Assembly: GCF_023721795.1 (NCBI RefSeq) | Contig: NZ_JAMQYE010000001.1 | Coordinates: 1,612,001 to 1,676,000, forward strand | DNA: 64,000 nt | Direction of reading: 5' to 3' | Origin: Zeimonas sediminis | GTDB taxonomy: Bacteria; Pseudomonadota; Gammaproteobacteria; Burkholderiales; Burkholderiaceae_E | Part shown: one piece after another, positions 1 to 60,022 of the stretch | Numbering within the stretch: the stretch's first letter is position 1 | Layout of the letters: every line of letters begins with the position of its first letter | The notes under the pieces: model-generated | Seen by the model: only the letters and a program-made list of their open reading frames with translations | What the model was told of the DNA's origin: nothing | The model's database searches: none | Translations under genes and position numbers: made by a program

Positions 1-381
1 GCTCGCCATCGGCACCGCCGCCTCGGCCGCCCGGTTCATGCTCAGCACGAACTCGTCGACCTGCTTCTGGTAGCCGGCCATCCGGGCGACGTCGGCCACC
101 TTCTGGATCGACGAGGGCATCAGGATCTTCACCGCCTGGTTGCCGAAGTAGCCGTCGCGCCTGGCGAGGTTCGCGACCGCGCGCTCGGTGCCCACGGCCA
201 GCGCCTCCTTGATGCCGGCGACGTCGGTCTGCGCGTCGCCGCTGCCGACGCTCCCGGAGGACAGGCCGGGGAGCGCGGCGCCGCCCTTCTTCAGGAGGTC
301 GTCGAGCCGGGGCAGCTGCGCGCGCGCGGTGCCGCAGGCCAGCAGTGCGGCCAGCGCCGCCAGGGTCGTTCGCCGGTTCAT
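1..381 (-). CDS. DUF4197 family exported protein (partial, C-terminus outside window)
   Basis: The reverse strand encodes the first 127 residues of a DUF4197-type protein; the rest lies before base 1. Residues 1-21 are a signal peptide with a basic start (MNRR), an Ala/Leu core and a likely cleavage after ARA at residue 21, so the protein should be periplasmic. After it come the family hallmarks: a KEALAVGTERAV helix, a DGYFGN turn, an ILMP segment and the MNRAAEAAVPMA stretch at the window edge. The ATG at 379-381 is the only start that keeps a full signal peptide. The biochemical role of DUF4197 is unknown. It is divergent from the MarR gene, with 135 bp between the starts. Confidence 0.8.
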   Translation of the reverse strand, partial: MNRRTTLAALAALLACGTARAQLPRLDDLLKKGGAALPGLSSGSVGSGDAQTDVAGIKEALAVGTERAVANLARRDGYFGNQAVKILMPSSIQKVADVARMAGYQKQVDEFVLSMNRAAEAAVPMAS

Positions 382-454
382 GCTCGGGCTCCATGCATCG
401 TCGGACACCATGCTTGCTTTCTTGCCATCCTAGCCGATGCGGGTCGACCGTAGC

Positions 455-498
455 TTGCCGTGACCAATCTATTGCATCTACAATTGTTGTATCTACAT
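455..498 (+). promoter_or_regulatory. Putative sigma-70 promoter overlapped by a tandem operator for the MarR/MFS operon
   Basis: A -35-like TTGCCG (455-460) and a -10 TACAAT (479-484) are separated by 18 bp. Over the -10 and start point lie two 12-bp direct repeats, TTGCATCTACAA (472-483) and TTGTATCTACAT (487-498), offset by 15 bp; each is itself a TTG-N6-CAA-like half palindrome. This is what one expects for a MarR dimer site repressing its own promoter. Binding is inference. Confidence 0.55.
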
Positions 499-516
499 TT
501 TCACGTCCGGCCTGCG

Positions 517-975
517 ATGACGACACCCACTTCCCGGCCCTCCAGGGCCTGCACCAACTTCCGGCTTCGCCAGTTGACCCGCCGCGTCACCCAGTTCTAC
601 GACGCCGAGCTGGGGAAGGCCGGCATCAGGACGACCCAGTACGCTCTGCTCTCGCACGTGCTGAAGCTCGGCCCGGTGCGCCCTGGCGAGCTGGCCCGGG
701 CAATGACGATGGACGCGTCCACACTGACCCGCAACCTCAGGCCCCTGGTCGAAGCCGGCTGGATCGAAATCTCGGCCGGGCCCGACGCGCGTTCCCGCAT
801 GGTCACGATCACCGAGGCCGGACGGGCCCGGCGCGAGGCCGCCCGCGATGACTGGCAGCGCGCCCAGACCGGCCTCGAGGCACGCCTCGGTCGGTCCCGG
901 GTGCTCGCCTTGCACGCGCTGATCGACGAATCCCTGGCGCTGCTCGATGCGCCAGCCGACGGAGACATCGAATGA
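517..975 (+). CDS. MarR family transcriptional regulator
   Basis: A 152-residue winged-helix regulator from the ATG at 517. The order is typical of MarR: N-terminal helices (NFRLRQLTRRVTQFYD), recognition region GELARAMTMDASTLTRNL near residues 62-80, wing (DARSRMVTITEAGRARRE), and a C-terminal dimer helix. An upstream in-frame ATG at 460 would place the start inside the promoter and operator repeats, so 517 is preferred. The stop overlaps the next start (ATGA at 972-975), so it is translated with the MFS transporter, which is the likely regulated target; the ligand cannot be told from sequence. Related regulators often respond to phenolic compounds or drugs. Confidence 0.88.
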   Translation: MTTPTSRPSRACTNFRLRQLTRRVTQFYDAELGKAGIRTTQYALLSHVLKLGPVRPGELARAMTMDASTLTRNLRPLVEAGWIEISAGPDARSRMVTITEAGRARREAARDDWQRAQTGLEARLGRSRVLALHALIDESLALLDAPADGDIE

Positions 976-2276
976 GCCAGTCCCCAGGCGGATCCGGGCG
1001 ATCCCCGGGCGCTACCACCGCCGCCGCGCCGGCCCCCGCGCAGATCGCCGTCTGGCTGGTGCTGCTGGCCGCCGCCGGCACCTTCGCGCTCACGATGGGC
1101 ACCCGCCAGACCATGGGCCTGTTCCTGAGCCCGCTGAACAGCGCGACAGGGCTCGGGCTCGGCAGCATCAGCCTGGCCTTCGCCTTCGGCCAGCTCTGGT
1201 GGGGGCTCACGCAGCCCTTCGCCGGCGCGATCGCCGACCGGATCGGCGCCGGCCGGGTGTTGCTGGCCGGCGTCATGCTGGTGGCGCTGGGCACTGCGCT
1301 CACCCCCTTCATGACGACCACCTCGGGCCTGGTGCTGGCGATCGGCGTGCTGGCGGCGGGCGGCGCCGGCATGGCCGGCCCTGCCGTGCTGATGGCCGCG
1401 ACGATGCGGCTGCTGCCGCAACGGATGCGCGGCATGGCGACCGGCATCGTCAACGCAGGCGGCTCGTTCGGCCAGTTCGCGATGGCGCCGATCGCCGGCG
1501 CGCTGATGGTCGGCTACGGCTGGTCGATCGCGATGCAGGTGCTGGGCGCGATCGTGCTGCTTGCGCTGCCGGCGGCCTTCCTGCTGCGAGGCAACGGGCA
1601 GGCGGCGCAGCCGGCTTCCGCGCCGCCCGCGGGACCGGCTACCCCCGCTGCTGCGGTTGCCCCCCGGCCCGCCGGCGCCCGCGCCGCGCTCGCCGAAGCC
1701 GCGCGCGACCCGAGCTACCGGATGCTCGCCGCCGGCTTCTTCGTCTGCGGCTTCCACGTCGCCTTCCTGGCCACCCACCTGCCGGGCGTGATCGCCACCT
1801 GCGGGCTGCCGGTCCAGTTCGGCGCCTGGTCGCTGGCCATGCTGGGCCTGTTCAACATCGTCGGCAGCGTGGCCATGGGCTGGGCGGTCGGTCGCTGGCG
1901 GATGAAATCGCTGCTGTCGCTGGTCTACGCGACCCGCGCGCTGGCGGTACTGGCCTTCCTGCTGGCTCCCAAGACCGGTTTCACGGTGCTGGCCTTCTCG
2001 GCGGTGATGGGCCTGACCTTCCTGTCCACCGTACCGCCGACCGCCGGCCTGGTGGCCAAGCTGTTCGGCACGACGAACATGGCGATGCTGTTCGGCGTGG
2101 TCATGCTGTCGCACCAGATCGGCGGCTTCCTGGGCGCCTGGCTCGGCGGCCGGATGTTCGAGGCCACCGGCAGCTACGACTGGGTCTGGTACATCGACAT
2201 CATGCTGGCCGTCGGCGCCGCGCTGATCCACCTGCCGATCCGCGAGGCGCGGATCGCGCGTCCGTCGGCCGCCTGA
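972..2276 (+). CDS. MFS transporter
   Basis: A 434-residue major facilitator with about twelve hydrophobic segments split into two halves by a Pro/Ala-rich loop near residues 205-230. The cytoplasmic motif-A region between TM2 and TM3 reads GAIADRIGAGRVLLAG (residues about 87-102), as in MFS permeases, and the second half contains PPTAGLVAKLFG, common in oxalate/formate-antiporter and monocarboxylate-like MFS proteins. The start overlaps the marR stop (ATGA). The partnership with a MarR repressor suggests an inducible exporter or uptake system for a small organic molecule; the substrate is unknown. Confidence 0.88.
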   Translation: MSQSPGGSGRSPGATTAAAPAPAQIAVWLVLLAAAGTFALTMGTRQTMGLFLSPLNSATGLGLGSISLAFAFGQLWWGLTQPFAGAIADRIGAGRVLLAGVMLVALGTALTPFMTTTSGLVLAIGVLAAGGAGMAGPAVLMAATMRLLPQRMRGMATGIVNAGGSFGQFAMAPIAGALMVGYGWSIAMQVLGAIVLLALPAAFLLRGNGQAAQPASAPPAGPATPAAAVAPRPAGARAALAEAARDPSYRMLAAGFFVCGFHVAFLATHLPGVIATCGLPVQFGAWSLAMLGLFNIVGSVAMGWAVGRWRMKSLLSLVYATRALAVLAFLLAPKTGFTVLAFSAVMGLTFLSTVPPTAGLVAKLFGTTNMAMLFGVVMLSHQIGGFLGAWLGGRMFEATGSYDWVWYIDIMLAVGAALIHLPIREARIARPSAA

Positions 2277-2293
2277 GCCGCGCGCCGGCCGGC

Positions 2294-2317
2294 CACCCGG
2301 GGATCCGTGCCCGGGTG
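2294..2317 (+). terminator. Hairpin after the MFS gene
   Basis: Perfect 8-bp inverted repeat CACCCGGG / CCCGGGTG with an 8-base loop, 17 bp after the MFS stop and before ribA. There is no downstream U-run, so it is at best a weak or factor-assisted terminator. The rest of 2277-2483 shows nothing else I can support apart from a lone -10-like TATCAT at 2400-2405. Confidence 0.35.
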
Positions 2318-2483
2318 CCGGGCCGGACCGCCCACGCGCAAGCGCCCCCCGCGCGGCGCAGCCCGGAACGTGCCGGGAGCGCCGGTCGGCGCGGCCCGAT
2401 ATCATTCGCCTTTGCGACCCGCCGGTCGACGAACCGAATCATGGCGACCCGGCGGCGCCCACGGCCCCGGATCCCCCACGCGC

Positions 2484-3155
2484 ATGGCGAACCAGACGCC
2501 CCTCGAAGACAGGCCCGAACCCACCGCCGGCGAAGCCGCGATCCGGCTGGTCGCGTCCTGCCGCCTGCCCACCGAGTGGGGCGTCTTCGAGCTGCACGGT
2601 TTCGAGGAGGCCGCCACCGGCCGCGAGCATGTCGCGCTCGCGATGGGCGACATCGCCGACGGCCGGCCGGTGCTCGCCCGGCTCCACTCCGAGTGCCTGA
2701 CCGGCGACGCGCTGTTCAGCCTGCGCTGCGACTGCGGGCCGCAGCTCGAGGCCGCGCTGGCGGCGATCGCCGCCGAAGGCCGCGGCCTGCTGCTCTACCT
2801 GCGCCAGGAAGGCCGCGGCATCGGGCTGCTGAACAAGATCCGCGCCTACCGGCTGCAGGACGAAGGCGCCGACACGGTCGAGGCCAACCTGCGGCTCGGC
2901 CTGGCGCCGGACCTGCGCAAGTACGACATCGCCGCCGACATGCTGGTGCAACTCGGCGTGCGCTCGCTGCGCCTGATGACGAACAACCCGCGCAAGATCC
3001 GCGCGCTCGAGAAGGCGGGCATCGAGATCGCCGAGCGGGTGCCGCTGCAGATCGAGCCTAACCCGCACAACGCCGGCTACCTGCGCACCAAGCGCCAGCG
3101 CCTGGGCCACCTGCTGGCCGCCAGCGGCCTGCAGCCCGACGAGACCGCGCCTTGA
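2484..3155 (+). CDS. ribA: GTP cyclohydrolase II
   Basis: Opens GTP to 2,5-diamino-6-ribosylamino-4(3H)-pyrimidinone 5'-phosphate, the first step of riboflavin synthesis, in the cytoplasm. The 223-residue protein carries the zinc site as Cys71, Cys82 and Cys84 ([17 protein letters not shown]), the [16 protein letters not shown] active-site stretch at 107-122 and the MTNNPRKI loop near 165-172. It is a stand-alone cyclohydrolase II without the DHBP-synthase half of bifunctional RibBA. The ATG at 2484 gives the usual family N-terminus; upstream in-frame sequence is low-complexity. Its TGA overlaps the TTG of the next gene. Confidence 0.95.
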
Positions 3156-4324
3156 GCGCGAACGCACCGGGCCAGGCGGCCGGCATCGACGTCGCGCGCA
3201 GCGACGCGATCGTCGTCGGCGCCGGCATCGTCGGCGCGGCCTGCGCCCGCCGGCTCGCCGAGGCGGGCCTGCGGGTCACCGTGCTCGAGCGCGAAGCGGC
3301 GCCCGCCACCCACTCGACCGGCCGCAGCGCGGCCGGCATCCGGGTGCAGTTCAGCGAGGCGGTCAACGTGCTGCTGTCGGCGGCGAGCCTGGACGAGTAT
3401 CGCGCGATGCCCGAGGCCGCCTACCGGCCGGTCGGTTACCTGTTCTTCGTGCCGCCCGCGCTGTGGCCGGCTCATCTCGAAGGCTACGAACTGCAGCGCT
3501 CTCTCGGCATGCCGGTCGAGCGGCTCACCCCGGAGCAGGCCGCCCGGATCGTGCCGGCCCGCATCGACGACATCGCCGGCGCCACCTGGTGCCCCGCCGA
3601 CGGCGTACTGGATCCGCACGGCATCGCGATGGCCTTCCTGGCCGAGGCCAGGCGGCTCGGGGCGGCCGTCCGCCTGAACGCGCCGGCGCAGGCGATCGCG
3701 AACGCCGGTTCGCCCGCCGCGGCGCGCTGGCAGGTGCGCACGCCGGCGGGCACGTTCGAGGCCCCGGTGCTGGTCAATTGCGCGGGCGCCTGGTCGGGCG
3801 AGGTCGGCCGCCTCGCCGGACTCGAGGTGCCGGTCGGCCCGGCGCGCCGGATCGTGTTCGCGACCGGCCCGCGAGTCGAGCCGAGGGTCTTCCCGCTGAC
3901 GGTGGATGCCGGCACCGGCTTCTGGTTTCGCTCGGAGGGGCAGCGGCTGATCTTCGGGCTGAGCAACCCGGAGGACACCGGCTTCGAGGAAGGCATCGAC
4001 TGGCCGTGGCTCGAGACCGCGTACCCGGTCGGGCTCGAGCGCTTTCCCTGGTTCGAGACGCTGGACCTCGACCGCAAGGCGAGCTGGTGGGGCTACTACG
4101 AAGTGACGCCCGATCACCAGCCGGTGGTCGGGCCCATGCCGGGTGCTCCCGGCTGGTTCAACGCCTGCGGCTTCTCCGGGCACGGCGTGCAGCAGGCCGC
4201 CGCGATCGGCCGGGTCGTCGCCGCCCAGGTGCGCGGCCAGCAGCCCTTCGTCGACGTGTCGTCGCTGTCGATCGAGCGCTTCGCCGCCGGCGCGCCGGCG
4301 AAGCGGGAGTCGCTGATCGTCTGA
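3152..4324 (+). CDS. FAD-dependent oxidoreductase (DAO family)
   Basis: A 390-residue D-amino-acid-oxidase-fold flavoprotein. The N-terminal dinucleotide fold has the GxGxxG core ([17 protein letters not shown], residues 23-39) and an acidic strand end (VLERE); a second FAD contact near the C-terminus reads [19 protein letters not shown]. Such enzymes oxidise amine or imino carbons of amino acids, sarcosine or glycine derivatives, or 2-hydroxyglutarate; the substrate cannot be assigned here. The start is a TTG at 3152 overlapping the ribA TGA (TTGA), so translation is probably coupled to ribA, and riboflavin is the precursor of its cofactor. That functional link is suggestive only. Confidence 0.87.
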
Positions 4325-47049: not shown

Positions 47050-48066
47050 GTGTCGAACCCCGCCTCCGTCTTCGAAGCCGGCGACCTCCGGCTGAGCTCC
47101 GGCGCCACCTATCGCGGCGCGCGGCTCTCCTATCGCACCTACGGCACGCTCTCGCCGGCACGCGACAACGTCGTGCTGTACCCGACCTCGTATTCGGCGC
47201 AGCACCTCGACACCCAGTGGCTGATCGAGCCCGACGGCATCCTCGATCCGACGCGCTGGTTCGTCGTGATTCCGGACATGTTCGGCAACGGCCTCTCCTC
47301 GTCGCCCGGCAACACCGCGCCGCCCTACGACGGCAGCCGCTACCCGCACTTCAGCATCCTCGACAACGTGCGCGCGCAGCGTCGCCTGTTGCGCGAGGTC
47401 TTCGGGGTCGAGCGGCTGAAGATGGTCTACGGCTGGTCGATGGGCGGCATGCAGGCCTACCAGTGGGCAGCCAGCTTTCCCGACGAGGTGGAACGGATCG
47501 CCGTGGTCTGCGGCGCCGCCCGCTGCGCGCGGCACAACTACGTGTTCCTCGAGGGCGTGAAGGCCGCGCTGACCGCCGACCCGGCCTGGCAGGACGGCCG
47601 TTTCGTCCGCAAGCCCGAGCGGGGCCTGCGCGCGATGGGCCGGGTCTACGCCGGCTGGGCGATGTCGCAGGCCTTCTACCGCGACGAGCTCTGGCGCGAG
47701 ATCGGCTTCTCGTCGCTCGAGGATTACCTGGTCGGCGGCTGGGAGGGCAACTTCCTGCGCCGCAACGCCGAGGACCTGCTCGCGCAGATCCACACCTGGC
47801 AGCACTTCAGCATCGCCGACGACCCCGCGTACGGCGGCGACTTCGACGCGGCGCTGCGCGCGATCCGCGCCGAGGTGCTGTTGATGCCGAGCCGCACCGA
47901 CCTCTACTTCCGGGTCGAGGACAACGCCGACGAACTGCCGCTGCTGTCGCGCGCACGGCTGGCGCCGATCGAGTCCGACTGGGGCCACCGCGCCGGCAAC
48001 CCGGTGCATCGCGGCGCCGACTGGTCCTTCATCCGGGCGCAGGTGCGCGAGCTGCTGGCTCGCTGA
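47050..48066 (+). CDS. Alpha/beta hydrolase, homoserine O-acetyltransferase (MetX)-like
   Basis: A 338-residue member of the MetX-like acyltransferase/hydrolase family starting with GTG at 47050. Motifs are SYRTYGTLSPARDNVVLYPTSY, IPDMFGNGLSSSPGNT, the nucleophile Ser130 in YGWSMGGMQAYQWA, the acid in MPSRTDLYF and the base in DWGHRAGNP. True MetX enzymes are longer and use different early motifs, so this is probably a paralogue acting on another acyl substrate. It overlaps rdgC tail to tail by 38 bp. Confidence 0.87.
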   Translation: MSNPASVFEAGDLRLSSGATYRGARLSYRTYGTLSPARDNVVLYPTSYSAQHLDTQWLIEPDGILDPTRWFVVIPDMFGNGLSSSPGNTAPPYDGSRYPHFSILDNVRAQRRLLREVFGVERLKMVYGWSMGGMQAYQWAASFPDEVERIAVVCGAARCARHNYVFLEGVKAALTADPAWQDGRFVRKPERGLRAMGRVYAGWAMSQAFYRDELWREIGFSSLEDYLVGGWEGNFLRRNAEDLLAQIHTWQHFSIADDPAYGGDFDAALRAIRAEVLLMPSRTDLYFRVEDNADELPLLSRARLAPIESDWGHRAGNPVHRGADWSFIRAQVRELLAR

Positions 48067-49039
48067 CGGACTCGGGCGCGATCTCGCCGCCCAGCGCCTC
48101 GACCAGTTCCGGGATCATCCGGCCGAGCTCGCCGGTGGCGATCGCCACGTCGGCATCGAAACCGTCGTCGGCCGGATCGTCCCCGCTCTCCGCCTTGCCC
48201 TCGAGCACCACGTCGAGCATCTCGATCCGCTTGAGCGTCATGCTCGCGTCGAGCAGGAAGGACACGCGATCCCGCCAGGTGATCGCGAGCTTCGTCGCCA
48301 CCTTGCCCTGCCGGACGTGGGCGACGACCTCGTCGATGTCCAGGCTGTGCCGCGCGTAGCGCACGGTTGCCCGGTCGCCCGCGCGCGCCTGCCCGGTTCC
48401 CTCGAGCGCCGCGTCGGACTCGCCGGCGCCCGCCTGCTTCAGCTCGCATTCCTGGTCGATCGAGAAGCCCGGCGGGGCCTCGCGCTCGGCGAGCCATAGC
48501 GACATCGCGGTGGACGGCGCCATCTGCGTCTTCAGCAGGCCGGCCGGCAGCACGGCGCCCAGGTCGCGGAAGGCCTCGATCAGCGCGCCGACCGCTTCGT
48601 CGGCTTTCGCCGCGCTGCCCGCGCCCACCACCAGCAGCCCGGCCTTCGGGTCGAGCCAGATCCGGGTGGTCGCGAACTTGCTGAAGGCGCGCGGCAGCAG
48701 GTCGACGACGATCTCTTCCTTCAACTCCTTGCGAAGCTTGCCGCGCGGCCGGCTGCCGGTTTCCTGCTCGATCTTCTGCAGGCGCGCCTCCAGCGCATCG
48801 CGGACCGCCGCGCCGGGCACGGCCCGGGTCTCGGTGCGCAGGCAAAGGATCCAGTGGCCGCCGACCGATTCCACCAGCGCCTCGTGCTCGCGTCCGCGCG
48901 GCTCGATCCACCCTGCCGAGCGCGGCTCGGTCGGGCCGCAGGGAACGAAGCGGGCGCGATCCAGCGCGCCCTCGAGGCTGGCGAGCGACGGCGGCTCCCA
49001 TCCGGGAGCGATCCGGTAGACGATGGCTGACTTGAACAT
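48029..49039 (-). CDS. rdgC: Recombination-associated protein RdgC
   Basis: A 336-residue ring-forming DNA-binding protein that moderates RecA activity. It begins MFKSAIVYRIAPGW and contains HWILCLRTETRAVPGAAVRDALEARLQKIEQETG, then RKELKEEIVVDLLPRAFSK and KVATKLAITWRDRVSFLLD, the conserved RdgC blocks. E. coli RdgC has 303 residues; the extra length is mainly the Ala/Pro/Glu-rich C-terminus, which lies in the region overlapping the convergent gene. Confidence 0.93.
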   Translation of the reverse strand: MFKSAIVYRIAPGWEPPSLASLEGALDRARFVPCGPTEPRSAGWIEPRGREHEALVESVGGHWILCLRTETRAVPGAAVRDALEARLQKIEQETGSRPRGKLRKELKEEIVVDLLPRAFSKFATTRIWLDPKAGLLVVGAGSAAKADEAVGALIEAFRDLGAVLPAGLLKTQMAPSTAMSLWLAEREAPPGFSIDQECELKQAGAGESDAALEGTGQARAGDRATVRYARHSLDIDEVVAHVRQGKVATKLAITWRDRVSFLLDASMTLKRIEMLDVVLEGKAESGDDPADDGFDADVAIATGELGRMIPELVEALGGEIAPESVSEPAARAPAPG

Positions 49040-52202: not shown

Positions 52203-53879
52203 GTGAGCGGACTCCCCTTCGAATGCGAGAAGCGCCCGGCCACCGGCACCCGCGGGATGGTCGTCACGAACCACCCGCTCGCCTCGGCCGCTGGCGCGGA
52301 GATGCTCGCCGCGGGAGGCAACGCGATCGACGCGGCGGTGGCCGCGCTGTTCACGCTCAGCGTCGTCGAGCCGATGATGGTCGGCATCTTCGGCGGCGGC
52401 CTGTCGCACATCCGGCTCGCCGACGGCCGGCACACGGTCGTCGACGGCCTGAGCTGCGCGCCGTCCGCGGCGCGGCCCGACACCTACCGCCCGGTCTCCG
52501 ACCGGATGCCGGACTACATGGAGACCGAGGGCCGCGAGAACGCGGTCGGCGCGACGTCGGTCGCGGTGCCCGGCAACCTGCTCGGCTGGTGCGAAGCCGC
52601 GAGCCGGCACGGCCGCTTGCCGCTGGCCGACCTGCTCGAACCGGCGATCCGGCACGCGCGCCGGGGCTTCCGGATCACCGAGTACCTGTCGGGCTGCATC
52701 GCGGAATGCGCGCCGGACCTGGCGGCCGACGCGGAGATCGCCCGCCTGTTCCTGCCGAACGGCCGCCCGCTCGCCGCCGGCGAGCGCCTGGTGTCCGGCG
52801 ACTACGCGGAAACGCTCGCCGCGATCGCCGCGCAGGGCCCGGCGGCGCTGCACGGCGGCGAGCTGGGCCGCCACGCGGTCGATGCGCTGGCGGCCCGCGG
52901 CGGGTTGCTGTCGCTCGACGATCTTGCCGGCTTCCGGCTGGTCGACCGCGCGCCGGTGCGCGGCAGCTATCGCGGCCACGAGATCATCGGCCCCCCGCCG
53001 CCGTCGGCCGGCGGCGTCCACGTGCTGCAGATGCTGAACATCCTCGAGGGCTTCGACCTGCGGGGCATGGGATTCGGTTCGGCCGAATCGATGCACCTGC
53101 TGGCCGAGGTCCTGAAGATCGCGTTCGCCGACCGGGCCGCAGCCACCGCCGACCCGGCCTTCGTGAGCGTGCCGGTCGAGAGGCTGGTGTCGAAGGAATA
53201 CGCCGGGCAGCGCCGCGCCGCGATCGACACGCGGCAGGCCAGCGAATGGCTGCCCGGCGTTGCGCTGCCGCGCGAGTCGGCCAACACGACCCACGTGAGC
53301 GTGGCCGACCGCGACGGCAACATCGTGGCCAGCACGCAGACGATCAACAGCCTGTTCGGGGCGCGGATCATGATCCCGGGCACCGGCATCATCCCGAACA
53401 ACTACATGTACCTGTTCGATCCGCACCCGGGCAAGGCGCTGTCGGTCGCCCCCGGCAAGCGGGTCACGACCTCGACCGCGCCCACGATCGTGCTGCGCGA
53501 CGGCCGGCCGCGCTACGTGCTCGGCCTGCCCGGCGGCCTGCGGATCTTCGGTTCGGTGATGCAGGCGCTGGTCAACCTGATCGACCACGGCATGACGATG
53601 CAGCAGGCGGTCGAGGCGCCGCGCCTGTGGACCCAGGGCCAGGAGCTGGAGGTCGAGCAGGGCCTGCCGGAAGCCGGCCGGGCCGCGCTGCGGGGGATGG
53701 GGCACCGGCTCGCGGTCGTGCCGCACGTGGCCGGCGGCATGAACGGCATCGAATTCGCGGACGACGGGTCGATGACCGGCGCCGCCTGCTGGCGGGCCGA
53801 CGGCACCGCGATCGGGCTGGGCGGCGGACTGGCGCGGCCGAACACCCGGTTCTGGCCCGAAGCGCCGCGAGCCACATGA
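52203..53879 (+). CDS. Gamma-glutamyltransferase-fold Ntn hydrolase, cytoplasmic, atypical glutamate site
   Basis: A 558-residue GGT-family protein. The self-cleavage/nucleophile threonine is Thr362 in ESANTTHVSVADRDGN, as in E. coli Ggt, with NSLFGARIM following. Two features differ from true GGT: the FREMAPA segment with the arginine that holds the glutamate carboxylate reads GLSCAPS, and GSPGGSRI reads GLPGGLRI. With no signal peptide, it is more likely an amidase or acylase of the oxamate-amidohydrolase/cephalosporin-acylase kind. GTG at 52203 with GAGAGG upstream. Confidence 0.87.
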   Translation: MSGLPFECEKRPATGTRGMVVTNHPLASAAGAEMLAAGGNAIDAAVAALFTLSVVEPMMVGIFGGGLSHIRLADGRHTVVDGLSCAPSAARPDTYRPVSDRMPDYMETEGRENAVGATSVAVPGNLLGWCEAASRHGRLPLADLLEPAIRHARRGFRITEYLSGCIAECAPDLAADAEIARLFLPNGRPLAAGERLVSGDYAETLAAIAAQGPAALHGGELGRHAVDALAARGGLLSLDDLAGFRLVDRAPVRGSYRGHEIIGPPPPSAGGVHVLQMLNILEGFDLRGMGFGSAESMHLLAEVLKIAFADRAAATADPAFVSVPVERLVSKEYAGQRRAAIDTRQASEWLPGVALPRESANTTHVSVADRDGNIVASTQTINSLFGARIMIPGTGIIPNNYMYLFDPHPGKALSVAPGKRVTTSTAPTIVLRDGRPRYVLGLPGGLRIFGSVMQALVNLIDHGMTMQQAVEAPRLWTQGQELEVEQGLPEAGRAALRGMGHRLAVVPHVAGGMNGIEFADDGSMTGAACWRADGTAIGLGGGLARPNTRFWPEAPRAT

Positions 53880-53899
53880 TTCGAATGGAGAACTTGAAG

Positions 53900-54520
53900 A
53901 TGCTGAAGATCTGGGGACGCCGCAACTCGATCAACGTGATGAAGGTGCTGTGGGTCTGCGACGAGCTGTCGCTGCCCTACGAGCGTATCGACGCCGGGAT
54001 GCAGTTCGGCGTGGTGAACACGCCCGAATACGCCGCGCTGAACCCGAACCGCAGGGTGCCCACGATCGAGGACGACGGTTTCGTGCTGGCCGAGTCGAAC
54101 ACGATCGTGCGCTACCTGGCCGCCCGGCACGGCCGCGAGGACCTGCTCCCTTCGGACGTCCGCCAGCGCGCCCGCATCGAGCAGTGGATGGACTGGGCGT
54201 CGTTCAGCCTGGCGATCGGGATGACGCCGCTCTTCTGGCAGCTGGTCCGCACGCCCGAGGACAAGCGCGACCCGAAGCTGATCGCCGCCAACGCCGCCGA
54301 GGCCGAGCGCTGCATGCGCATCCTCGACGAGCAACTCGCCGACAAGGCCTACCTGGCCGGCCCCGGGTTCACGCTGGCCGACGTGCCCGCCGCCGCCTTC
54401 GTCCATCGCTGGCTGAAGCTGCCGATCGAGCACCCGTCGCTGCCCAGGCTCGAGGACTACTACCGCCGCATGCTCGAGCGGCCGGCCTACCGCGAGCACG
54501 TGGCGCTGGAACTGAGCTGA
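53900..54520 (+). CDS. Glutathione S-transferase family protein
   Basis: A 206-residue GST: thioredoxin-like N-terminal half (MLKIWGRRNSINVMKVLWVCDELSLPYERID, NPNRRVPTIEDDGFVLAESNTIVRYLA) and an all-helical C-terminal half (AYLAGPGFTLADVPAAAFVHRWL). The ATG at 53900 has GGAGAA seven bases upstream and gives the family N-terminus. An in-frame ATG at 53876 overlaps the preceding stop (ATGA) and is the alternative, adding eight residues. Confidence 0.9.
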   Translation: MLKIWGRRNSINVMKVLWVCDELSLPYERIDAGMQFGVVNTPEYAALNPNRRVPTIEDDGFVLAESNTIVRYLAARHGREDLLPSDVRQRARIEQWMDWASFSLAIGMTPLFWQLVRTPEDKRDPKLIAANAAEAERCMRILDEQLADKAYLAGPGFTLADVPAAAFVHRWLKLPIEHPSLPRLEDYYRRMLERPAYREHVALELS

Positions 54521-54554: not shown

Positions 54555-54584
54555 TTGACAAACATTTCCCCGATCGCATCTACT
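54555..54584 (+). promoter_or_regulatory. Sigma-70 promoter for the Tgl-like gene
   Basis: Perfect -35 TTGACA (54555-54560), 18-bp spacer, -10 TCTACT (54579-54584, four of six). Predicted start near 54591 leaves a leader of about 40 bases ending in GGGGAGAAGAAGA before the TTG start. This is among the clearest housekeeping promoters in the window and separates this gene from the GST upstream. Confidence 0.55.
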
Positions 54585-54630: not shown

Positions 54631-55803
54631 TTGGACATCGGGAAATCCGGGGGCGGCGTCGTGCTCGGGCGCGTCGACCTGCCCGCCGCTGATCGATACA
54701 TCGCGTCGCTGGGACTCACCGAGGCGGTCGAGCGCCACGCGGACGGAGAGCGCGTCCGCCTTAGGCTCGCCGGCCCGCAGGCGGCTGCCTGGCTGCCGGG
54801 CTTCGACACGCTGGGAATCGTCGAGCGCTTGTCGCTCGACGGCGAGCGCCGCCCCGACGACCTCGAACGCGAGATCCTGGTCGCGCTGCTCGGCTCGCCG
54901 ATCGACTTCGCCTACCCGAGCGCCGACGAGTTCCTGGCCGCGATCCGGATGCGCCGTCGAATCGTCGAGGCGGCCCGGCGCACCGTGCTCGCCTTCGACA
55001 CCGCCGCGGCGGAGCGCCCGGAAGGCTACTGGGACTACGCGGACGGTCGCGGATTCGTCGTGCTGCCGGGCAAGCCGCTGATCGACGCGCTGGTGCTCGC
55101 CACCCAGCCGGGGGCGTCGGGGCGTCTCTACTCGTTCTCCTGCTATAGGGCGACCGAGTACGTGATCCTGCTGGCGATCGCCCAGGAGGCCGAGCAGGTC
55201 AACCCGCCGCTGCTCGCCGCGCTGCAGGCGCAGTGGGAGGAGCGCCCGATCATGTCGGGCAAGTTCCACGACGTCTTCCTGCACGAGTTCGGCACCAACG
55301 AGGCTCCGCTGCCGCCGCGCTACTACATCCCCGGCGACCGGCTGTGGTTCCGCAATCCCGACCCCCATTCGTCCGACGTCGCCGGCTTCGAGGGCTCCTG
55401 GGTGTTCTACCTGGGCGGCGGCATCTTCACGAACTTCTGGAAGCCCGGCCGCCACTTCACGATGGCCGACAAGTGCCTGGAGATCTACCACTGGCGTCAC
55501 GCGGTGCGGATCGGCGCCGACGGCGAACCCTGGATGGACGAGTCGCTGGTCGACGAGCGCGTGGCCCGCTCGAAGGCCGATCCGGCCGAGGCCGCGCGGA
55601 TCGTGGCGCTGATGTCCCGGGTGCGCGACCCGAAGGGCGTCTATGCCGACGGCGGCTGCATCGACGCGACCCGCGAGTGCCCGCGCGAGGTCTGCCCGGG
55701 GACCGCGGACATCAGATTGCCCGCGCTGCGGCGCGACTCGGCGGCGCCGGCGGATGTCGGGCCCGCTCAGCCGCCGAACGCCGCCTCGAGCATCGCGATG
55801 TAG
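54631..55803 (+). CDS. Protein resembling Bacillus protein-glutamine gamma-glutamyltransferase (Tgl)
   Basis: A 390-residue protein from a TTG at 54631 behind GGGGAGAAG. From residue 90 on, block after block recalls Bacillus Tgl, the spore-coat transglutaminase: FAYPSADEFLAAIRMRRRIVEAA, RLYSFSCYRATEYVILLAI with Cys171 at the place of the Tgl catalytic cysteine, YYIPGDRLWFRNPDP, and GSWVFYLGGGIFTNFW. By my alignment the two partner glutamates are not kept: Ser170 precedes the cysteine, and Ser256 stands at the other site, with Glu254 two residues away. An extra N-terminal 80 residues and a C-terminal tail with Cys343, Cys350 and Cys355 are not in Tgl. Activity is uncertain. The 3' end overlaps the convergent gene by 37 bp. 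Confidence 0.65.
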   Translation: MDIGKSGGGVVLGRVDLPAADRYIASLGLTEAVERHADGERVRLRLAGPQAAAWLPGFDTLGIVERLSLDGERRPDDLEREILVALLGSPIDFAYPSADEFLAAIRMRRRIVEAARRTVLAFDTAAAERPEGYWDYADGRGFVVLPGKPLIDALVLATQPGASGRLYSFSCYRATEYVILLAIAQEAEQVNPPLLAALQAQWEERPIMSGKFHDVFLHEFGTNEAPLPPRYYIPGDRLWFRNPDPHSSDVAGFEGSWVFYLGGGIFTNFWKPGRHFTMADKCLEIYHWRHAVRIGADGEPWMDESLVDERVARSKADPAEAARIVALMSRVRDPKGVYADGGCIDATRECPREVCPGTADIRLPALRRDSAAPADVGPAQPPNAASSIAM

Positions 55804-56903
55804 TCCTCGCGCGTGGCCGGCCGCGGATTGGTCGCGTGGCAGTGATCGAGCAGCGCGGCGTCGGCGATGGCGGGCAGCTCGGCGCGCTCGACGCCCATCG
55901 CAGCCAGGCCGGCGGGCAGGCCGAGCCGCGCGTTCAGGCCCTCGATGAAGGCCGCCGGATCGGCGCCCGGCGCGAGCCCCATCGCGTCGGTCAGCGTGCG
56001 CGCCTTGGCCTCGAGAACCGGCGCGTTGAAGCGCAGCACCGCCGGCAGCAGCACCGCGTTCAGCGTGCCGTGGTGCAGCGCCCGGCCGGGCAGCGCGCCC
56101 AGCGGATGCGACAGCGCGTGCACCGCGCCCAGGCCCTTCTGGAAGGCCATCGCGCCTTCCATCGCCGCCATCATCATCTCCCAGCGAGCCTGACGGTCGC
56201 CGCCGTCGCGCGTGGCCCGTTCGATGTGCGCGCTGCCACGGCGCAGGCCGTCGAGCGCGATCGCCTCGGCCGGCGGATTCACCGCCGGCGCGCAGAAGGT
56301 CTCGATACAGTGCGCGATCGCGTCCATGCCGGTGGCCGCGGTCAGCATCGGCGGCAGGCCCAGCGTGAGCTCCGGGTCGCACAGCGCGACCTTCGGCAGC
56401 AGGTGCGGGCTCAGCAGGCCCAGCTTGCGGCCGTTGCGCATCACGATCACGCTGCCGCGGCCGACCTCGCTGCCGGTGCCGGCAGTGGTCGGGATCGCGA
56501 CCAGCGGCGCGACCTTGGGCGTGATCCGGCCGACACCGCCCTCGACCGCCGCGTACTGCAGCAGCGGCTCCGGATGCGTGACGATCAGCGCGACCGCCTT
56601 GGCCAGGTCGATCGACGAACCGCCGCCGACCGCCACCAGCCCGTCGCAAGCGCGCTCGCGGTAGACCTGCGCGGCCCGCATCACCGCGTCCTCGGTCGGG
56701 TTGGGAGGCGTGCCGTCGAAGACCGCCGGCTCGGCCGCGTCGCCGATCGCGCCGGTCACCCGGTCGAGCAGGCCGGCCGCTGCGACGCCGCGGTCGGTCA
56801 CGACCAGCGGACGGCGGACACCGAGTCGCTGCAGTTCGCCGGGCAGAAGGCGCAGTGCGCCGAAGTCGAAGTGGATCGTCGTCAGGTAGGTGATGGTGGC
56901 CAT
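55767..56903 (-). CDS. Iron-containing alcohol dehydrogenase
   Basis: A 378-residue Fe-ADH-family enzyme: NAD-binding GGGSSIDLAKAVAL, PTTAGTGSEVGRGSVI, and metal ligands Asp and His in GMDAIAHCIE plus the two histidines in HALSHPLGALPGRALHHG. The family oxidises or reduces primary alcohols, hydroxyacids or, in the maleylacetate reductase branch, aromatic-pathway intermediates. It is downstream of an RraA-like aldolase (62-bp gap), suggesting a catabolic role. ATG at 56903. Confidence 0.9.
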   Translation of the reverse strand: MATITYLTTIHFDFGALRLLPGELQRLGVRRPLVVTDRGVAAAGLLDRVTGAIGDAAEPAVFDGTPPNPTEDAVMRAAQVYRERACDGLVAVGGGSSIDLAKAVALIVTHPEPLLQYAAVEGGVGRITPKVAPLVAIPTTAGTGSEVGRGSVIVMRNGRKLGLLSPHLLPKVALCDPELTLGLPPMLTAATGMDAIAHCIETFCAPAVNPPAEAIALDGLRRGSAHIERATRDGGDRQARWEMMMAAMEGAMAFQKGLGAVHALSHPLGALPGRALHHGTLNAVLLPAVLRFNAPVLEAKARTLTDAMGLAPGADPAAFIEGLNARLGLPAGLAAMGVERAELPAIADAALLDHCHATNPRPATREDYIAMLEAAFGG

Positions 56904-57774: not shown

Positions 57775-58956
57775 ATGAGCCGATCGTCCGGCTGGCGACA
57801 CAAGGCAATCAACGTCGACGCGATGCGCCGGCTCGCGCGCCGCAAGCTGCCGCGCCCGGTGTTCGATTTCGCCGACGGGGGCGCCGAGACCGAGTGGACG
57901 CTCCGGCGCAACGAAGGCGCCTTCGCCCGCAAGGCCCTGGTGCCGCGGCCGCTGAACGGCGCTGCGCAGCGCGACCTGTCGACCACGCTGTTTCGCCACC
58001 GGCTCTCGATGCCGCTGATGATCGGCCCCACCGGCCTGGCCGGGCTGTTCTGGCCGGACGGCGAGCTCTGCTCGGCGAGGGCCGCGGCGGCCGCCGGGAT
58101 CGGCTACTGCCTGAGCCACGGATCGGTCTGCACGATCGAGGAGCTGGCGGCCCTGCGCACCGAGCCGCGGTGGATGCAGGTCTTCGTCTATCGCGACCGC
58201 GGGCTCACTCGCGAGTTCACCGACCGCGCGGCGGCGGCCGGCTATCACGCGCTGGTGCTGACGGTCGACAACCAGTTGCTCGGCAACCGCGAGCGCGACC
58301 TGCGCAACGGCTTCGGCATACCGCCGCGCTTCACGCCCTGGCAGTTGCTGGCGATGGCGCCGCAACTGCCCTGGCTGTGGCGCATGCGGAACGCGCTGCC
58401 CCGCCTGACGATGGGCAGTTACCTGCGCGAAGGCTCGCGCGAGGAGCTCGCCGCGCTCGCCGGGCGGCTCGCCTCGCTGCTCGATCCGTCGATGGACTGG
58501 GACGATGTGCGCGCGCTGCGCGAGCAGTGGAAAGGGCCGCTGCTGCTCAAGGGAATCCTGCATCCCGACGAAGCCCGGCAGGCGACAGCCCTGGGCGTCG
58601 ACGGCCTGATCGTGTCGAACCACGGCGGCAGGCAGCTCGATGGCGCGATCAGCAGCATCGAGGCGCTGCCGGGCATCGTCGCCGCGGCGCGATCCGCGCG
58701 CCCCGACCTGCCGATCCTGATCGACGGCGGCATCCGCCGCGGCGCCGACCTGGCCAAGGCGCTGGCGCTGGGCGCTACCGCGGGCCTGATCGGGCGGCCG
58801 CAGCTGTGGGGGCTGGCAACGGCAGGGGAAGCGGGCGTGGCCCACCTTCTGGAGATCTACCGGCGCGAGTTCGACCGCGCGATGGGGCTGCTGGGCGCCG
58901 CGCGCGTCGACGAGCTGGGGCCCGATCTGCTCGCCGAGGCGCCGCCCCTGGGCTGA
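57775..58956 (+). CDS. FMN-dependent alpha-hydroxy acid oxidase/dehydrogenase (LldD-like)
   Basis: A 393-residue TIM-barrel flavoenzyme of the lactate/mandelate/glycolate oxidase family. It starts with the phenylalanine-containing FDFADGGAETEWTLRRNE, has the substrate/FMN lysine in GPLLLKGILHPDEAR, the catalytic base in VSNHGGRQLDGA and the phosphate-binding end LIDGGIRRGADLAKALALGATAGLIGR. L-lactate, mandelate or another L-2-hydroxy acid is expected. ATG at 57775; divergent from the RraA-like gene across 152 bp. Confidence 0.92.
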   Translation: MSRSSGWRHKAINVDAMRRLARRKLPRPVFDFADGGAETEWTLRRNEGAFARKALVPRPLNGAAQRDLSTTLFRHRLSMPLMIGPTGLAGLFWPDGELCSARAAAAAGIGYCLSHGSVCTIEELAALRTEPRWMQVFVYRDRGLTREFTDRAAAAGYHALVLTVDNQLLGNRERDLRNGFGIPPRFTPWQLLAMAPQLPWLWRMRNALPRLTMGSYLREGSREELAALAGRLASLLDPSMDWDDVRALREQWKGPLLLKGILHPDEARQATALGVDGLIVSNHGGRQLDGAISSIEALPGIVAAARSARPDLPILIDGGIRRGADLAKALALGATAGLIGRPQLWGLATAGEAGVAHLLEIYRREFDRAMGLLGAARVDELGPDLLAEAPPLG

Positions 58957-59035
58957 GGCACCACTGCGCCGAGATGCCGGCCCGGGCCGAGACGCCAGCG
59001 ATGCGTTGAAACGCAGGTCCCGGGCGTGGTCGCGC

Positions 59036-60022
59036 TCAGGCCGGCACGACCGACGCCGGCCGCCGGCCCATCGAGAAGTCGACGATGCAGCCGAGCCCCT
59101 CGCGGGCAATCGCGTCGAAGCACTCGTCGGTCCAGCACAGCGCGTGCGGGGTCACGATCACGTTGTGCATCTTGAGCAGCGGATTGCCCGGGTCGACCGG
59201 CTCCTGCTCGAACACGTCGAGCGCGGCGCCGGCGATCGTGCCCGAGCGCAGCGCCTCGATCAGCGCGGCCTCGTCGGCGATCGGCCCGCGCGCCATGTTC
59301 ACGAAGAAGGCGGTCGGCTTCATCCGCGCGAAGCGCTCCGCGTTCATCAGATGGCGGGTGCTGTCGTCGAGCAGCACCAGCGCGACGACGAAGTCGGATT
59401 GCTCCAGCAGATCGTCGAGCGACACCTTGCTCGCGCCCAAGCCCTCGATGACCGCGGCGTCGACGAACGGATCGGCCGCCAGCATCCGCCAGCCGAAGGG
59501 CCGTGCCAGCGCGAGGAACTCCCGGCCGATGCCGCCCGCGCCGATCACACCGAGCGAGCGCGTGGTCAGGCCCAGGCCCATGTGCGCGGTTCGCTCGTTC
59601 CAGCGGCCCTCGCGGGTCAGCCGGTCCTTCGCGAAAAGCCGGCCCGCGAGCGCGAGGATCTGGGTGAGCGCCGCGACCGCGACCGGCCGGCGCACCGCCA
59701 CCGGGGTGTTCGTGGTCACGATGCCGCGGGCGGCCAGCCCCTTCACGTCGACCGAGTCGTAGCCGACCCCGTGCCGGGCCACGATGCGCACGCGGCAATC
59801 GTCGCGCGCGGCCGCGGCGGCCGGCACTCGCGGGGAGCTCACGTACAGCCCGTCGTAGCGCGCCATGATGTCGGGCGTGATCTCGGAGACCTGTTCGGGC
59901 AGGAACTCCCACTCGATGGCCGGGTTTCGCGAAAGCGCCTCGAGCGGGCCGCTTCCGAACGACGGCCGGCCGGCGGGCGTCAGCAGGTCGCGGGTCAGGC
60001 CCACGCGGAATCTCGTGCTCAT
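59036..60022 (-). CDS. D-isomer-specific 2-hydroxyacid dehydrogenase
   Basis: A 328-residue NAD(P)-dependent dehydrogenase: GVGYDSVDVKGLAARGIVTTNTP, the Rossmann loop GVIGAGGIGREFLALARPFGW, the catalytic arginine in FVNMARGPIADEAALIEAL, glutamate in DVFEQEPV and histidine in VTPHALCWTDE. The unusual CWTDE after the histidine (Ala-rich in most relatives) may affect specificity. The ATG at 60022 overlaps the aldolase stop by 4 bp, so it is translated after it. The likely substrate is a D-2-hydroxy acid made or used by the aldolase. Confidence 0.9.
   Translation of the reverse strand: MSTRFRVGLTRDLLTPAGRPSFGSGPLEALSRNPAIEWEFLPEQVSEITPDIMARYDGLYVSSPRVPAAAAARDDCRVRIVARHGVGYDSVDVKGLAARGIVTTNTPVAVRRPVAVAALTQILALAGRLFAKDRLTREGRWNERTAHMGLGLTTRSLGVIGAGGIGREFLALARPFGWRMLAADPFVDAAVIEGLGASKVSLDDLLEQSDFVVALVLLDDSTRHLMNAERFARMKPTAFFVNMARGPIADEAALIEALRSGTIAGAALDVFEQEPVDPGNPLLKMHNVIVTPHALCWTDECFDAIAREGLGCIVDFSMGRRPASVVPA

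Follow-up and report, generated by a model that had tools for sequence, protein, structure and literature searches.

A TGL-family protein of Zeimonas sediminis with serine at the positions of both partner glutamates of Bacillus Tgl

Introduction

What does a relative of Bacillus Tgl do when the catalytic cysteine is kept and both acids that can partner it are replaced? The dyad of Bacillus Tgl consists of Cys116 and Glu187, and Glu115 can substitute for the latter in a non-reciprocal manner, according to the available part of the published account (PMC6490927). The question was raised by a gene of Zeimonas sediminis that lies in a 64,000-nucleotide stretch of contig NZ_JAMQYE010000001.1 (positions 1,612,001 to 1,676,000), referred to here as the window. 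An earlier note on this DNA had described the product as Tgl-like, and had suggested that it could be a cross-linking or deamidating enzyme or else a dead-site relative.

The gene, its start site and its promoter

The open reading frame at 54631-55803 (+) is listed with a TTG start and a product of 390 amino acids. It is uninterrupted, confirming that the frame proposed in the earlier note is real, and it is the single match of its kind, without an internal stop, in the 3.86 Mb source genome. Upstream of the TTG the reading frame is open for 24 further codons. In four relatives (L004, L005, L006, and L011) the frame opens just 4-7 codons ahead of an ATG at a similar position, and for this reason we favor the TTG as the start of the window gene.

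The gene had also been credited with a strong promoter of its own, a proposal that was not borne out, as a promoter scan reported none. The hexamer TTGACA is present at 54555-54560, but the best -10 sequence that could be found by eye, TCTACT, is poor and does not have an A at position 2. Together, and with a spacer of 18 bases, these elements (54555..54584, +) represent a weak promoter candidate.

Family membership and predicted fold

The product matched the Pfam TGL family (PF20085) with 109.6 bits and an E-value of 2e-31, against a cut-off of 23.7. The match spans residues 73-281 of the protein and positions 17-210 of the 245 in the profile, and no other Pfam family was found at E<=1. As membership is already visible to Pfam, the window protein is not a new family. 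Its score against the NCBIfam equivalog for protein-glutamine gamma-glutamyltransferase (NF002869) was 30.7 bits, far under the cut-off of 307.

Among solved chains, sequence matches were limited to two Tgl sequences. The single window sequence matched 7c9j_A with an E-value of 7.2e-7 and 4p8i_A, over residues 81-217 only, with an E-value of 0.22; a profile built from 46 sequences improved these values to 1.4e-12 and 1.5e-4, respectively. An AlphaFold2 model made with 46 sequences had a mean pLDDT of 91.0 and a pTM of 0.90, with values below 50 at residues 1-5, 337-339, and 380-390. A Foldseek search of the PDB with this model returned one match at E<=0.001, Bacillus Tgl 4p8i_A (E=1.8e-7, probability 1.00), with a superposition that was loose (TM 0.37 by query and 0.57 by target, rmsd 7.6). 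Both the profile and the predicted structure, the latter by this loose superposition, thus place the protein with Tgl and its NlpC/P60-like core, in agreement with the earlier note. In the model helix 171-190 begins with Cys171, matching the position at a helix head that the catalytic cysteine has in Tgl-type enzymes, and Ser256 is placed at the beginning of strand 255-262.

The protein shares with Bacillus Tgl (4p8i, 7c9j, PF20085) its predicted fold, the catalytic cysteine, the family profile and the blocks F.YPS, FxC, PGD...NPD, and YLG.G.F; the alignments with 7c9j and 4p8i bring these four blocks into register, as the earlier note had proposed. It differs in having serine in place of both partner glutamates, a glutamate in the column of Arg185, and additional parts at both ends, which had likewise been anticipated. 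The N-terminal extension (residues 1 to ~75; 54631..54855, +) precedes the start of the Pfam match and is modelled as a small beta-alpha-beta-beta-alpha unit, whereas the C-terminal part carries the conserved K281, C282, E284, W288, and GGCID..R.

Relatives and the choice of aligned sequences

When one genome was scanned for each species, 47 loci of relatives were identified, including those of Massilia, Bordetella genomospecies, Ideonella, Polynucleobacter, Sulfuriferula, Novimethylophilus, Rhodocyclales, and others, as well as loci from Planctomycetota, one source being Pirellula and another a bin that carries the label Schlesneria. When the window genome or the search center is counted, TGL matches were present in 40/399 genomes of the order of the window, 12/74 of its family and 4/398 drawn from its phylum. 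Of 246 genomes drawn from the phylum to which the Pirellula genome (G454) belongs, seven had a match, that genome included, and among these seven G454 alone was of the window type, four had the motif GEN and two were unplaced; one of the Planctomycetota matches (L065) had neither EGS nor GEN in its frame. All 12 relatives' genomes that were queried directly had one TGL match each. One of the loci (L043) comes from a metagenome bin labelled Bordetella parapertussis; its TGL protein groups with those of Alcaligenaceae bins, and the species label may be wrong.

A first alignment held 50 rows and was made without L007, L008, and the partial L052. The wider alignment held 98 rows, of which 92 are the window protein and those loci whose best frame scored at least 50 bits against the A1 profile. 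Copies of the window (L001 and L003), partial loci (L052, L056, and L114), other copies (L061, L067-L073, and L081) and identical sequences were excluded, and L113 had no match to the A1 profile. The kept rows come from a part of the TGL matches of the order and family, with up to 30 loci taken per scan and ten further regions added. Six canonical rows completed the alignment, namely five picked for carrying GEN and the PDB 7c9j fragment; four of them (L060, L062, L063, and L064) had no A1 match at 1e-3 and L009 reached just 19.2 bits.

The 92 rows comprise 82 of the window type, the window included, which we call cytosolic, and ten of a sister type, which we call secreted. Because the EGS motif itself served to assign rows to these types, what stands independently is the presence of EGS in all 92 kept rows. 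The sister type, with the motif GYEGS[N/S], was found in the same order as the window (L007, L008, and L105-L112), and nine of its ten rows have a strongly hydrophobic N-terminal stretch, with a 12-residue Kyte-Doolittle mean of 2.2 to 3.0. The best such mean at the N-terminus of the window protein is 1.12, with no strongly hydrophobic stretch, although the measure is crude and values among the 82 cytosolic rows went up to 2.16; we infer a cytoplasmic location for the window protein. Three genomes (G848, G1016, and G726) have both types.

Several of the canonical proteins had features of their own. A locus from the genus of the window (L009, genome G014) encodes at 205-2058 (+) a TGL protein that retains the canonical glutamates (VEC ... 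AGEN) and in which an internal ATG is followed by a signal-like N-terminus. The next frame downstream in that locus, 2040-3392 (+), has an N-terminal leader (DVFSS to DPQGN) in common with the first and a C-terminal part that differs. The GEN-type proteins drawn from the same phylum as the Pirellula genome (L060, L062, L063, and L064) have E, G, D, and E, respectively, as the residue before the cysteine, and L060 gave the best score against the Pfam TGL model that was seen (E=9.7e-45).

Genomic context and host

Upstream of the window gene are a gene for a gamma-glutamyltransferase (52203-53879, +), which scored above the TIGR00066 cut-off, and a GST-like gene (53894-54520, +) that is followed by 110 bases to the TTG. 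Downstream, a convergent gene for 4-hydroxybutyrate dehydrogenase (55767-56903, -; NCBIfam equivalog, 595 bits against 500) overlaps the end of the TGL gene by 37 bases. When 11 neighboring open reading frames of the window, some of which may not be genes (there was no Pfam match for 47904-49001 or 58857-59912), were compared with the 2 to 17 kb around the relatives, none recurred at E<=1e-20 and 40% coverage. The gamma-glutamyltransferase and GST-like genes (52203-54520) are therefore not linked to TGL genes elsewhere, and we rejected them as gamma-glutamyl partners; an operon or spore context was rejected on the same result.

No family matched more than five of 60 scanned neighbors of the relatives (57 of 104 listed and three others, the genes being picked by a heuristic of length and GC3). 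Matches to PhaC accounted for five of the 60 at E<=1e-8, and the only one individually identified is a PHB polymerase gene that adjoins the TGL gene in Massilia (L019, 8985-10817, -). A downstream cluster is common to eight Massilia/Telluria loci, and we set aside a link to PHB since this cluster and the Massilia PhaC probably reflect genus-level synteny. A mobile-element origin was also rejected, as the plasmid and phage records of two collections held no match to the window TGL protein and no PHROGs or PADLOC family was found at E<=0.01. The window gene behaves like an isolated unit, and no neighbor names a substrate.

The host is presumably Gram-negative, judging from its betaproteobacterial relatives. 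The expectation that it does not sporulate was supported by one marker, Spo0A_C, which had no match in the source genome (99.03% complete) and did match in the B. subtilis control. By this single marker the host does not make endospores, and a role as a spore-coat component would not apply to the window protein.

The active-site columns and a possible relocated partner

Tgl numbering was fixed by aligning the canonical L060 protein with 4p8i, in which the relevant motifs are F-E115-C116 and W-R185-G-E187-N. Their counterparts in the window protein are F-S170-C171 and E254-G-S256-W. Cys171 (55141..55143, +) occupies the column of the catalytic Cys116 and was present in all 98 aligned rows, including the 92 EGS-type ones. 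Ser170 (55138..55140, +) is in the column of Glu115, where the 82 cytosolic-type rows have S in 77, G in four and D in one (S in 49 and G in one row of the first alignment), and Ser256 (55396..55398, +) is in the column of Glu187. Hence the cysteine is retained and conserved among homologues, and both partner glutamates are serine, as the earlier note had read them. Glu254 (55390..55392, +), in the column of Arg185, is the proposed relocated acid partner. Glu254, Gly255, and Ser256 were found in 92/92 kept rows; none of the six canonical rows has a glutamate in the 254 column, where they have A, S, or Q, and all six have Glu in the 256 column. The following W257 was present in 81/82 cytosolic-type rows, with F in the other.

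The reading that we prefer, with a probability of about 0.4, is that the window protein is a working cytoplasmic cysteine acyltransferase of the TGL family, either a transglutaminase or a deamidase, whose acid partner would have moved to Glu254. Cys171, as the leading residue of the catalytic helix, would attack a carboxamide, most likely that of a glutamine side chain, to give a thioester. Either an amine would resolve the thioester, giving a cross-link or a transferred amine, or water would do so, giving deamidation. The role of Glu187, or of its substitute Glu115, would be taken over by Glu254, two residues earlier. We infer each of catalysis, the partnership of Glu254, the type of reaction and the substrate, and glutamine-directed transglutaminase or deamidase activity would be the default for this family. 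Taken together, the kept nucleophile, the purifying selection described below and the replacement of an acid in the Glu187 column by one in the Glu254 column would be in keeping with a cysteine enzyme that works through a relocated partner.

A shifted acid partner would have precedent, since the available part of PMC10318531 describes the double dyad of Tgl along with several cases in the papain-like superfamily where active-site residues have shifted. The papain-like and NlpC/P60 enzymes with migrated residues treated there share with the window protein a helix-borne nucleophilic cysteine and a variable partner; the same part of that source holds no mention of a loss of both Tgl glutamates.

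The column of Glu254 also bears on the strength of this proposal. The available part of PMC6490927 counts Arg185 of Bacillus Tgl among the Q-side residues at the tunnel entrance, and for that reason the task of Glu254 may be to bind substrate and not to partner the cysteine. This lowered our confidence in Glu254 as the partner and raised the standing of an alternative in which the protein is an active TGL-fold cysteine enzyme with a different partner (E284, E176, H287, or the Cys343/Asp345 loop) or a different reaction (amidase or small-molecule acyl transfer), and not a Glu254-dependent cross-linker. We regard this as a serious contender, slightly less probable than the reading that we prefer. 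It is favored by the pattern of conservation in the C-terminal part and near the cysteine: K281, E284, W288, G341, G342, and R348 were present in 92/92 EGS rows, and R173 and E176 in 82/82 cytosolic rows. K281 and E284 were absent from all six canonical rows, although three of the six have gaps in these columns and the alignment there is weak. On these alignments E284 and E176 are candidate partners, and the absence of any recurrent neighbor that names a substrate is likewise consistent with another reaction. The case for H287 is reduced by its occurrence in just 73/82 cytosolic and 0/10 secreted rows. Of the acids, Glu254 lies closest along the chain to the position where Glu187 was lost, and it occurs in step with that loss in 98/98 rows, which weighs against this alternative.

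The cysteines of the C-terminal part were conserved to different degrees. The three late cysteines that had been pointed out (C343, C350, and C355) are all present in the window protein, but C343 alone is conserved, in 50/50 rows of the first alignment as compared with 7/50 for C350 and 23/50 for C355. Cys343 belongs to the C-terminal GGCIDxxR motif (55651..55674, +), which comes shortly after the low-confidence residues 337-339 of the model, and it was found in 81/82 cytosolic and 0/10 secreted rows. Cys282 (55474..55476, +), which was not among the cysteines listed in the earlier note, was found in 50/50 rows of the first alignment and in 79/82 cytosolic rows of the wider one. Both C282 and C343 are confined to the cytosolic type.

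A non-catalytic binding or scaffold protein of the TGL fold is, in our estimation, unlikely. Such a pseudoenzyme would account for the replacement of both partner glutamates in 92/92 EGS rows (one of which has Asp in the Glu115 column). The loss of Glu187 and Glu115 should disable the mechanism published for BsTgl, to judge from the available part of PMC6490927, and transglutaminase domains of polymorphic toxins, a different domain family, have become inactive after losing catalytic residues (PMC3482391, available part). Conservation of the protein speaks against this explanation. Cys171 is kept in every EGS row across two phyla, and 49 of 390 columns were invariant over the 50 rows of the first alignment, including C171, E254, S256, C282, E284, and C343. 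In addition, pN/pS over residues 55-355 was 0.07 to 0.31 in 12/12 chosen close pairs, indicating purifying selection. Dead enzymes seldom retain the nucleophile in every member. The dead-site relative suggested at the outset has thus become less likely given the invariant cysteine and purifying selection, and it retains a low probability given that both partners are gone.

It is highly improbable that the protein is an ordinary transglutaminase that keeps the published dyad geometry, with Glu254 brought to the place of Glu187 by a local slip or bulge of the strand, for although E254 is invariant, is two columns away and is followed by a well-conserved strand (YLGxGxF), S256 never varies and the pattern E-G-S-x-x-x-Y-x-G (to Y260) is ungapped in 92/92 rows, with the same spacing as that from G-E-N to Y in 7c9j.

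A separate branch of the Tgl fold

A tree of the 98 rows, made with a careful search, separated the canonical, secreted and cytosolic proteins each by one branch, with support values of 99/89, 100/99, and 98/97, respectively; long branches were flagged and the root and branching order of this tree are unsure. The exchange at Glu254/Ser256 falls on one branch and is thus one event rather than repeated compensation, a point that counts against Glu254 as the relocated partner. The six Planctomycetota rows need two label changes among the 82 cytosolic rows, a placement that fits inter-phylum transfer or mislabelled bins.

The secreted sister type agrees with the window protein in having Cys171, Glu254, Ser256, K281, E284, W288, and GG....R in 10/10 rows. 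It differs in having Gly before the cysteine and Asn (nine rows) or Ser (one row) for W257, and in having neither C282 nor C343; two of its members (L007 and L008) are about 28% identical to the window protein. As a tentative proposal, one that we hold to be doubtful as a whole, the EGS clade (EGSW cytosolic and EGSN secreted) may be a distinct class of Tgl-fold enzymes in which the acid/base migrated two residues and the C-terminal K281/E284/GG....R was added, and which would carry out cross-linking or deamidation directed at glutamine, unrelated to spores, in Betaproteobacteria and Planctomycetes, both inside the cell and outside.

Implications

A search of open-licence PMC literature did not find TGL proteins of Betaproteobacteria or Planctomycetes as the topic of a title or opening, nor, within the available parts of those sources, the altered site, its fixation in 92 rows or the secreted sister type. 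According to the available part of a survey of genes for sporulation from 2012 (PMC3533761), which restates an older claim, Tgl-like genes occur in Bacillus and had gone undetected in non-spore-formers. TGL matches in 40/399 genomes of the order of the window, together with one tested genome without Spo0A, stand in contrast to that statement.

For annotation, the Pfam-based label "protein-glutamine gamma-glutamyltransferase" is not yet justified by the active site of the window protein. A conserved branch that has the nucleophile and neither known acid partner offers a clean test of the catalytic needs of the Tgl fold, and the EGS branch suggests that there is glutamine-directed protein modification in ordinary Gram-negative cells.
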